Shown here piece by piece: positions 16,284-19,619 of a stretch of DNA of 32,479 nucleotides (position 1 is its first letter; each line of letters opens with the position of its first letter). The notes below the pieces were generated by a model. The model was given only the letters and a program-made list of their open reading frames with translations, did no database searches and had not been told where the DNA came from. The position numbers and the translations under genes were made by a program. Source of the DNA: Clostridiisalibacter paucivorans DSM 22131 (lineage in GTDB: Bacteria > Bacillota > Clostridia > Tissierellales > Clostridiisalibacteraceae); assembly GCF_000620125.1 (NCBI RefSeq), contig NZ_JHVL01000039.1, positions 1 through 32,479 of the forward strand, in the 5' to 3' direction.

Positions 16284-16312
16284 ATAATACTACTAATTTT
16301 TTAAAAAGTCAA
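16284..16312 (-). promoter_or_regulatory. Promoter of the his operon
   Basis: On the minus strand -35 TTGACT (16312-16307) and -10 TATTAT (16289-16284) are 17 nt apart. The leader is only about 55 nt, with no T-box or other riboswitch visible. The -35 box begins 1 bp from the end of a RAYT-associated repeat copy (16314-16350). Confidence 0.8.
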
Positions 16313-16313
16313 C

Positions 16314-16350
16314 TAAAAAATGGGGTCAGGCTCACCTTTAAACTTTATTT
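16314..16350 (+). repeat. RAYT-associated repeat, copy R1
   Basis: A 37-bp sequence (T, six A, T, then GGGGTCAGGCTCACCTTTAA and ACTTTATTT) identical to copy R2 at 17253-17289. It directly abuts the -35 box of the his promoter. Confidence 0.93.
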
Positions 16351-16477
16351 TAATTCCACTACAATATATTTTTTTGTATATAAGTAACATTTCACAAGAT
16401 TATCTACTGTTTTTAAATCTATGTCTACAATCTAATATATATGATAATATATAGATATAATCTATTTGGAGGTAAAT

Positions 16478-16777
16478 ATGGATAAAATAATAATAATATG
16501 TTCAATATTTATAATAATTTTTTATTTTTTTAAGAAAAGTCAGTGGATAGTATTGTATGAATCTAATAATATGGACAAAAGCCGTATATATGAATACCTT
16601 TTTTATCTAAAGAATAATAATATTCGATGCAAAGTAAATATGCTTAATTCCAGAGGATTTGGTAATAGTATGGGAAATAGTTTTAATGTAAGAAATCAAG
16701 AAACTATTCAATTACGAGTGCATAAGAATGATTACGAAAAAGCAAGAAAATTGATTTCTAAAAAAAATGCATTATAA
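16478..16777 (+). CDS. DUF2007-like small protein with N-terminal membrane helix
   Basis: The 99-residue product starts with a hydrophobic segment (residues 3-16, IIIICSIFIIIFYF), then a small alpha/beta domain: VLYESNNMDKSRIYEYLFYL, NNNIRCKVNML, and QLRVHKNDYEKARKLI. This resembles DUF2007 (putative signal-transducing protein) domains, in which a short chain resembles half of a PII-like ferredoxin fold; the function is unknown. I take the ATG at 16478 because TTGGAGG (16466-16472) lies just ahead. An in-frame TTG at 16466 is within that site. It is the only plus-strand gene in the island, lying between repeat copies R1 and R2. Confidence 0.7.
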   Translation: MDKIIIICSIFIIIFYFFKKSQWIVLYESNNMDKSRIYEYLFYLKNNNIRCKVNMLNSRGFGNSMGNSFNVRNQETIQLRVHKNDYEKARKLISKKNAL

Positions 16778-16850
16778 AATTAGCGTCAGTACCACATTAC
16801 AATGTAAATATATTATTAATCATTTCCTCTTATTAGAAACATAATGAACT

Positions 16851-16874
16851 ACCACCGAGACAAGCAACGGTGGT
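16851..16874 (-). other. IS200/IS605-type right-end hairpin (tnpB 3' end, possible omega-RNA scaffold)
   Basis: ACCACCG (16851-16857) pairs with CGGTGGT (16868-16874) over a 10-nt loop, 41 bp beyond the stop of the tnpB remnant on its strand. A smaller stem CCTAG-TTAAG-CTAGG overlaps the tnpB stop. This layout resembles the 3' untranslated end of IS605/IS1341 elements, where the omega-RNA ends and its guide is read from flanking DNA. Family knowledge and inference; not proven here. Confidence 0.5.
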
Positions 16875-16914
16875 TTCAAAAAAAGTTTGGAATTTAACTT
16901 TCGACCTAGCTTAA

Positions 16915-17202
16915 CTAGGCAACCCTTATTCTTTTGGGAGTGTCCATGACTCCATTATCCCTTATCTTATGAATCATTTTGGGAATACATTTATCTTTGA
17001 GATATTTTCTCATGATATTTACACTTCCGTTTACATCACTATTGATTATCTTGTTTCCTGCTTGGAATAATACCCTTTTAATTCTTCTTGATTTGTTACA
17101 ATTAGACTTATTTAAATCTTCTAAGTCTATCGCAGAGCAACCACTTGTGTAGCTTTAGTTGATTAAGACTAACTTTATACCCTCTAACTTAGCTTTGTAT
17201 AA
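16915..17202 (-). pseudogene. tnpB: Decayed tnpB (IS605/IS1341-type) C-terminal remnant
   Basis: A 95-codon open stretch on the minus strand, interrupted by one in-frame TAA at 17157-17155, reads LYKAKLEGIKLVLIN-stop-SYTSGCSAIDLEDLNKSN and continues NKSRRIKRVLFQAGNKIINS, DVNGSVNIMRKYL, to PKRIRVA and stop. This is the C-terminal part of TnpB, with the SYTSGCS region and the late RuvC segment (SDVNGSVNI, which holds the last catalytic Asp). A second stop lies just before LYK, and no upstream part (about 270 residues in an intact protein) is present: RAYT repeat R2 begins about 50 bp away. The gene is dead. No tnpA (IS200-type) of its own is seen. In intact elements TnpB is an RNA-guided nuclease. 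Confidence 0.88.
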
Positions 17203-17252
17203 CTATGAATATGTTGGCAACAATGACTGGGTTAACTCAATCAACACTCAAT

Positions 17253-17289
17253 TAAAAAATGGGGTCAGGCTCACCTTTAAACTTTATTT
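17253..17289 (+). repeat. RAYT-associated repeat, copy R2
   Basis: Identical over 37 bp to R1 (16314-16350). Its right end overlaps the stop and last codons (NKV) of the RAYT transposase gene, as an inverted partner of R3 on the other side of that gene. Confidence 0.93.
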
Positions 17290-18101
17290 ACTATTCTAGA
17301 TATAGTTTGCTCTGAGACCTTAAGTCTATCAGCTAATTCTCTTTGACTCATTAGCTTGTTTTTAATTACTGTCTTAACAAATTTCTCTTTTATTTTGCTA
17401 GTTTTTCTATTCTTGGCCCTCCCCATTAAATCTTCATAAATGATTTCATATTTATTTATAAATTGGTTTAATAACTCTTCATATGTTAAATCAAAATTTA
17501 ACTCTTTATTATATTTTGTAATGTTTTCATTAGGTATAAATTCATAATCACTTTTACATTCAATAATATCTTCTTGTTCCATGAATTTTAAGTACTTACT
17601 TATAGCTTCATTCTTCTTGGTTGAAAAAATAGACATTGGAAAATAAATATCACAATATATGGGAGTGTATGTTTTATATTCCCTATGACTGCTCCATCTA
17701 TAATCTATATCTGCTATCCCTGCTCTTACTGGATTATTATGTATATATTTTATTAATGTGAGTAAATACTGATCTTTATCACATAATATTGACTTATACC
17801 TCTGTTCAAATACATGTCCAGTTCTTTCATTCACCTTATTATAGTGTTGAGTAAATGTCTGTTGTATTAATTGCATAGGTTTTGACAATGGTATATCATC
17901 CACTTCAATCAATAAATGAGCATGATTATCCATAATCGCATAGGCATATAATTTGCAATCATATTTATCTATGTATGTCTTGACCTTTTTCAAATATAAC
18001 CCTTTCATTTTATTAGATTCAAAAATATATTGTCTATTATTACCTCTTACTATCACATGATAAAGGGCTCCTCTATAGTGAACTCTTGTTTTTCTAGGCA
18101 T
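17277..18101 (-). CDS. REP-associated tyrosine transposase (Y1 / HUH) with C-terminal HTH
   Basis: Single-strand nuclease of the Y1 transposase family, RAYT clade. The HUH motif is H60-A-H62 in MDNHAHLLIEV, and the likely catalytic tyrosine is Y87 in QQTFTQHYNKVN. The family hallmarks GHVFEQRYKS and YIHNNPVRAGI and WSSHREY are present. Beyond residue 240 lies a helix-turn-helix, LMSQRELADRLKVSEQTISR, a C-terminal extension seen in clostridial forms. RAYTs are domesticated or host-linked relatives of IS200 TnpA that act on repetitive palindromic sequences. Here four copies of a GGGGTCAGGCT repeat surround the gene, two of them flanking it in inverted orientation. AGGAGGG precedes the ATG. The frame of 274 residues looks intact and probably active. 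Confidence 0.93.
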   Translation of the reverse strand: MPRKTRVHYRGALYHVIVRGNNRQYIFESNKMKGLYLKKVKTYIDKYDCKLYAYAIMDNHAHLLIEVDDIPLSKPMQLIQQTFTQHYNKVNERTGHVFEQRYKSILCDKDQYLLTLIKYIHNNPVRAGIADIDYRWSSHREYKTYTPIYCDIYFPMSIFSTKKNEAISKYLKFMEQEDIIECKSDYEFIPNENITKYNKELNFDLTYEELLNQFINKYEIIYEDLMGRAKNRKTSKIKEKFVKTVIKNKLMSQRELADRLKVSEQTISRIVNKV

Positions 18102-18125
18102 AAAATCCCTCCTATTAAATGCCTA

Positions 18126-18149
18126 ATATTTAAAAGTAAGCCTGACCCC
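18126..18149 (-). repeat. RAYT-associated repeat, copy R3 (inverted, diverged)
   Basis: On the minus strand GGGGTCAGGCTTACTTTTAA then ATAT; it differs from R1/R2 at a few positions (TTACTTTT for TCACCTTT). It lies between the RAYT ATG and the stop of the VanZ-like gene, 4 bp from the latter. Confidence 0.88.
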
Positions 18150-18153
18150 GTTT

Positions 18154-19558
18154 CTATTTCATTGCTGGAATAGTAATTGTATATTCTTTTTCATCTATTA
18201 TTGAATCAAATAAATATATTGGTTGATAAAATCCCTTGGAATCTAATCTATAATCTAATGATATCTTTATTATATCTATAGACTCTATATTATTACTTGA
18301 ATTAAAATAACGAAACTTTCCATCTTTTAAATCTTTATAAGCCTCTGATTCACTTTTAATTATAACATCTTTAACTTTATTATATGTAACTATATTATTG
18401 TGAATTTTTTTGATTGTATTATCATTGTAATATGTACAATATAATACCCCCTCAATCAATGATTGGTCTTTAATATGTTTTTCTACAGTCCATTTATATC
18501 TTCCAATATCTTCATTTTTAAATACAGATTCTTTAGGCAGATTTATATTATATTTTTTTAAAGATTTCAGCAAAGTATCTTTGTCTATATTCATAGGTTC
18601 TATTTCGTCATCGAAAACAGAAAAATCTGTGTATCTATAACTTCCATCTAAATACTCCAACCATATATTATAATCTGTATTTCCTCTTATCCAATAAATT
18701 GCCTTATTTTCATAAATATCTATTTCTATGTTTTGAGTATTAATTCTAAGATTTTCAAAGAAATCAATAACAAATTCTTTTGCTAAATCCTCAGTGTAAG
18801 AAGGTGCCTTGTAAATAGGAACTATTCTATTCTCATTATTTAACTTTATATCTAAGAATATCTTTGCATCTTTCATATCTATTTTATAATTATGAGCTAT
18901 TGAAAGATTGCCAAATTCCTTAAAAGTATAATATGTAAAAATACCTTTAAAAATACCTATTACTAATATCAATGGAAGTAAATAATTTAATGTTCTTAAA
19001 AATCTATGTTTTTTTCCCTTTATCAATTCAAATATTCCCATAACAACACCATAACCAATAACAGCCCCTAATAGATTGTTAAAAATATCATCTAGTTCAA
19101 ATATACCAAAACCTGTAATCAATTGTACACATTCAATTAATAAAGTTAATATGAATGCCAATCCTATAGTCCACTTTTTATTGTGAAAATTTTTATGTAA
19201 CATGGGTAATAAGATTCCTAAAGGTACAAACATTAATATATTTAGTATAATAAACTGCCAATTTCTAATAGCAAATGTATTCCAAGCTTCTCTATAGGAA
19301 CTTAAGAAATGGAGATTTGCATTTCCATAAAAACTTCCGTCTCGGTTCAAAAATGTAACTCCTATAAACATGATTATATATATAGTAAGCAAGAACCCTA
19401 TAAAAGTCTGCCTTTTCTCCAATTTCTTTTCTCCATTCATTAATTTTTTTATATATAAAAAAATAACATATACCTCCAAGTATACTTATCATTATTACAA
19501 CTGCTATTCCTAAATAAAAATATTCTTCAATCATTCTCACTAATTCGTGTATTCTCAA
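18154..19558 (-). pseudogene. VanZ-like membrane protein gene, frameshifted at a 7-A run
   Basis: Two overlapping frames make one VanZ-family protein. The first frame starts at TTG 19558 (GGAG 8 nt upstream) and gives MRIHELVRMIEEYFYLGIAV... to YFFIYKK. The second, open to 18154, continues LMNGEKKLEKRQTFIGFLLT with the VanZ core FLNRDG, NLHFLSSYREAWN, WQFIILNILMFVPLGILLP, ECVQLITGFGIFELDDIFNN and a fifth helix. The switch is at the A7 run (19450-19444): one base too many. A joined product would be about 467 residues: five helices plus a C-terminal extracytoplasmic domain of about 270 residues that I do not recognise. VanZ confers teicoplanin resistance in enterococci, but most relatives have unknown roles. 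It could be a true mutation, slippage-dependent expression, or a sequencing error. It sits between repeats R3 and R4. Confidence 0.82.
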
Positions 19559-19590
19559 CCCTCATACTCCTTCTAATCCATTTTATGTAA

Positions 19591-19619
19591 AAATAATGTT
19601 TAAAGATGAGCCTGACCCC
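19591..19619 (-). repeat. RAYT-associated repeat, copy R4 (inverted)
   Basis: On the minus strand GGGGTCAGGCTCATCTTTAA then ACATTATTT, differing from R1/R2 at only a few of 29 positions. It lies upstream of the VanZ-like start and 13 bp from the parvulin gene terminator, and marks the right edge of the island. Confidence 0.9.

Follow-up and report, generated by a model that had tools for sequence, protein, structure and literature searches.

We identified an 889-bp TIRtron in a 32,479-nt stretch of genomic DNA from Clostridiisalibacter paucivorans DSM 22131 (the window), and we conclude, at a probability of roughly 80%, that the repeat island around it consists of this element, with inverted ends starting with GGGGTCAGG, and of extra single copies of the end sequence that landed nearby. 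The element itself is of a kind already described and is not a new system.

Organization of the repeat island

As the first-pass annotation had reported, the window carries four copies of GGGGTCAGGCT, two per strand: R1 (16322–16347, +), R2 (17261–17286, +), R3 (18124–18149, −), and R4 (19594–19619, −). R2 had been taken as a flank outside the transposase gene, which is incorrect, as it overlaps the stop codon of that gene. Because the transposase stop codon falls within R2, and R3 is located 22 nt ahead of the ATG (and ~5 nt past the stop of the VanZ-like gene), the two are the 3′ and 5′ TIRs, respectively, of one complete TIRtron that runs 889 bp from R3 to R2 (17261–18149, −). R1, in the gap between hisZ and a 103-aa open reading frame, and R4, ~42 nt past the stop of the PPIase gene and shortly after a terminator-like hairpin, are additional single copies of the element's end sequence. 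R1 and R2 are, as described earlier, identical across 37 nt (94% over 47 nt), and R4 is indeed close to R1 (94% over 32 nt); the likeness of R3 is 83% over 30 nt. The resemblance of R1 and R2 extends ~18 nt into their outer flanks (16304–16321, TCAACTAAAAAAT; 17243–17260, TCAATTAAAAAAT), and the present analysis found neither a copy history nor a target rule that would explain these 18 nt.

The element encodes a 274-aa Y1 HUH transposase (17277–18101, −) that matches Pfam PF01797 (Y1_Tnp; 5.7e-15) and has a C-terminal HTH (HTH_24/HTH_3). Its HUH pair (H60 and H62, in the motif NHAH) and its catalytic tyrosine (Y119, in the motif YIHNNP) are intact, and H60, H62, Y119, N123, and P124 are invariant across the clade. 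The inverted-repeat score at the element ends is 16, compared with at best 10 among ten shuffles, and both ends carry GGGGTCAG, which fits GGGGWSAS; the repeat is non-palindromic and lacks a GTAG tag. The gene had been labeled a RAYT, of which the intact Y1 HUH transposase stands, but its flanks are non-palindromic TIRs tagged with GGGGTCAG rather than REPs, and the right names are therefore TIRYT and TIRtron, not RAYT in the strict sense. A sequence search of the PDB returned no relative of the transposase, and single-sequence structure prediction gave a low-confidence model (mean pLDDT 40.8).

Copies of the repeat across the genome

Counting the repeat genome-wide, as the first-pass annotation had proposed, we found 12 occurrences of the 11-mer GGGGTCAGGCT in the 3.25-Mb genome, with 0 for the reversed control, and 15 copies of the 21-mer GGGGTCAGGCTYAYYTTTAAA at up to 3 mismatches, as compared with 1 for the control, a number far above chance. 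These comprise single copies, element ends, and inverted pairs, with those outside the window located on contigs C9 (two), C17, C24 (three), C66, and C58 (two inverted pairs). Except for R2 over the transposase stop, none of the 15 lies within a gene; the one on C17 reaches a stop codon. As for gene ends, a hand count that scored an element or an inverted pair as one gave about 9 of 12 insertions facing a gene's 3′ end, several of them within 15 nt of the stop. Among these 12 insertions, 7 pairs are separated by no more than 10 kb, against an expectation of 0.41 (P = 5e-6), and since such clustering is typical of the repeat family genome-wide, the proximity of R1 and R4 does not on its own point to a compound unit.

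The two pairs on C58 (988–1059 and 4793–4864) are 72-bp inverted TIR pairs that lie 3.8 kb apart, each ~10 nt past a stop codon, and are REPIN- or MITE-like units of the window's repeat family. With RNA parameters, the 72-nt pair folds into a 23-bp hairpin at −41.8 kcal/mol; single TIR copies barely fold. The copy number of the family is modest. Neither Rfam nor a literature search with the repeat sequence returned anything relevant, and the 21-mer had only 2 matches in a collection of 84,980 species, about what we estimate for chance. The same genome also holds a truncated second transposase (C42:1509–1790), 59% identical over 92 aa, whose 5′ end, AGGGTCAGGCTTTACTATTTAC, combines the common tag with another inner part; an inverted pair of similar type is found on contig C118 of another genome, G010.

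The end tag follows the transposase clade

Relatives of the window transposase are present in 82 of the 249 genomes of the order, many of them framed by inverted ends that fall into distinct tag classes. In a phylogeny of 40 proteins, the ten TIRYTs with GGGGTCAGG ends (tagged TCAGG) all fall into one clade (support 98/90) with no other protein inside, and none of 500 shuffles fitted the tags to the tree as well; the labels of four loci (L017, L119, L114, and L034), three of them TCAGG, were set by eye before the tree was built, and only one end was seen for L114. Other end tags in the order are GGGGACAGG (L025 and L029), GGGACGGTTC (L022, L023, L034, L037, and L042), and TGCCAGGCA (L041 and L125). 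The GGGGTCAGG subgroup was found in this one order and on a plasmid from Sporomusa, a member of a different class, where a 42%-identical protein has GGGGTCAGGCC at both ends.

Repeat and transposase also occur together: in a set of 59 relatives, a transposase match is present in 7 of the 8 genomes that contain the exact 11-mer and in 25 of the 51 that lack it (one-sided p ~0.046, calculated by hand). A survey for tag dimers, with a gap of 15–44 nt that misses the window genome's own pairs (gap of 54 nt), identified 4 of the 249 genomes, each of which has a transposase match, and the control was positive in one other genome. In the window genome and two others (G030 and G011), the element whose variable part is most similar to the dispersed copies is the one in the same genome. 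The exact repeat occurs in the window genome alone, and G010 and G039 contain near copies. G039 also has a related element that has decayed, 79% identical to the window's in DNA and with its 5′ TIR; the leuS of this genome is 76% identical. G010 holds several repeat types, including the window's type accompanied only by transposase end fragments. Two 243-bp copies in that genome (C115, at 205 and 2342), 93% alike, start with the window's TIR type and a transposase 3′ end, and each follows a terminator-like hairpin. Judged from the tree, the tag goes with the transposase clade rather than with the host.

Evidence on mobility

Two genomes of a related genus, G007 and G023, which are ~93% identical around hisZ, provided a present/absent case for a related repeat family, not for the window's own. 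A GGGGTCAGG inverted pair on G023 contig C3 is absent from the corresponding place in G007, with both sides 91–96% identical, although the left junction is not clean, with ~20 non-matching bases. At a second G023 pair, the corresponding place in G007 holds a different sequence, and one G023 pair (L073) was rejected as an empty-site case because the sequences on its two sides align to separate locations. A single copy (L076) is common to both genomes and slightly decayed in G007, indicating that some copies are old. In the genome of the present/absent case, we saw no intact TIRYT matching this repeat family. At the same locus (L076:2827–3064) is a ~235-bp repeat with dozens of copies in each of G007 and G049 (72 and 80 matches, including some that overlap on the two strands) and no Rfam match. 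For the window itself, none of the genomes compared is a close relative (even the nearest have a hisZ only ~50% identical to the window's), and hisZ does not neighbor the PPIase gene in the relatives examined, which left no ancestral site to read.

Origin of the outer copies

The first-pass annotation had offered two accounts of the island, repeats multiplied by the transposase or a compound mobile unit, of which we favor the former. The case for multiplication by the window's transposase rests on the number of copies, the association of the repeat with the gene, the linkage of tag and transposase throughout the clade, and the resemblance of dispersed copies to their own element. Counting against it, no insertion of the window's own family was caught moving, G010 carries the window's repeat type with no more than transposase end fragments, and the family has few copies. 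A compound unit would have R1 and R4 as its termini and would carry the transposase, the VanZ-like gene, and everything else in this 3.3-kb interval as a single mobile element. Its positive support is confined to layout and base composition: R1 and R4 are inverted and nearly alike, and the R1–R4 interval has the lowest GC of any 3.3-kb stretch in the window (0.262; median 0.319). We consider it unlikely, as single TIRs without cargo are common elsewhere in the genome and cluster at other loci too, and no second copy of R1–R4 was seen. The interior also carries a seemingly broken tnpB, which points to assembly piece by piece. The evidence for this probable C-terminal piece of an IS605-type tnpB (about 16918–17154, −; hairpin at ~16850–16876) is weak, as it resembles the TnpB C-terminus by eye but falls below the Pfam threshold (PF07282, E = 0.2). 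As for the other genes, the VanZ-like assignment in the R3–R4 interval (18154–19479, −) was confirmed (PF04892, 3.8e-19), and the 103-aa open reading frame (16466–16777, +), previously called DUF2007-like, matches no family in Pfam or NCBIfam. Elsewhere in the window, a SAM riboswitch lies at 513–618 (+; RF00162, 97.1 bits).

That most copies face gene 3′ ends, several of them close to the stop, and that R4 comes after a terminator-like hairpin, could also be expected of a host sequence, such as a terminator or regulatory RNA, that is beside the transposase by chance. We regard this as very improbable: the tag follows the transposase clade and not the host, the exact repeat is confined to one genome with near copies in two, and single copies barely fold and have no Rfam match.

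If the transposase did multiply these ends, as we favor, analogy with REP/REPIN and IS200/IS605 systems suggests how. The protein would bind its own ends as single-stranded DNA, probably folded into the hairpin formed by an inverted pair; it would cut at the foot of the hairpin near the GGGG tag through Tyr119 and, acting in cis or in trans, move or copy short segments bounded by such ends. Single copies would then be one-ended products or decayed pairs. To our knowledge, single-strand cleavage of a TIR by a TIRYT protein has yet to be shown for the family. The ends may further be read in two parts, the constant tag GGGGTCAGG by the catalytic core and the variable inner part by the C-terminal HTH, a tentative proposal that, if true, would account for the match between the copies in each genome and the transposase of that genome. 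Among ten transposases, C-terminal similarity tracked the variable part once core similarity was removed (partial r = 0.37, permutation p = 0.022), a weak correlation from one exploratory test on few sequences; core similarity did not track it (p = 0.75).

Comparison with known systems

The names TIRYT and TIRtron were introduced for transposases whose flanking TIRs contain a GGGGWSAS motif; the TIR families occur both singly and in pairs (De Nocera et al. 2013, PMC3733652). The window's Y1 gene likewise lies between GGGGWSAS TIRs that are near or overlap gene ends, and its TIR family is dispersed as singles and pairs, a trait of some TIRtron members only; its subgroup differs in having the longer common tag together with a lineage-specific inner part. 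Most TIRYTs have been placed in TnpAY1 subclass 2.1, a correspondence proposed by the authors, which is characterized by a C-terminal HTH, a Y---NP motif, and no REPs, with the consensus NHVH or NH[YF]H and YIELNP or Y[IV]HLNP; the authors considered that its HTH may recognize a new target or may not recognize the target at all (Quentin et al. 2018, PMC6006769). The window protein shares the HTH, the Y---NP motif, and the lack of REPs, and its NHAH and YIHNNP are near, but not equal to, the consensus. Overall, the element shows every testable TIRtron feature and most of those of subclass 2.1.

Like RAYTs, REPtrons, and REPINs, it combines a Y1 transposase with short repeats scattered through the genome and with inverted pairs capable of folding, but its repeats lack the GTAG/GTGG tag and the palindromic REP, and the protein scores below the cut-off of the NCBIfam model REP_Tyr_transpos (72.5 bits; cut-off 80). 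HUH/Y1 chemistry would be expected as in IS200/IS605, from which it differs in its longer protein with an HTH, in ends that are terminal inverted repeats rather than subterminal hairpins, and in the presence of one full copy only; the IS200 model NF033573 gives 18.7 bits (cut-off 55).

TIRYTs are a large and little-studied group of Y1 transposases, and the papers found to use the term leave open whether TIRs are the substrate of the TIRYT. The link between tag and clade, the match of copies to their own element, and one present/absent pair make the TIR–TIRYT connection directly testable. Together, these results suggest a REPIN-like system without REPs.
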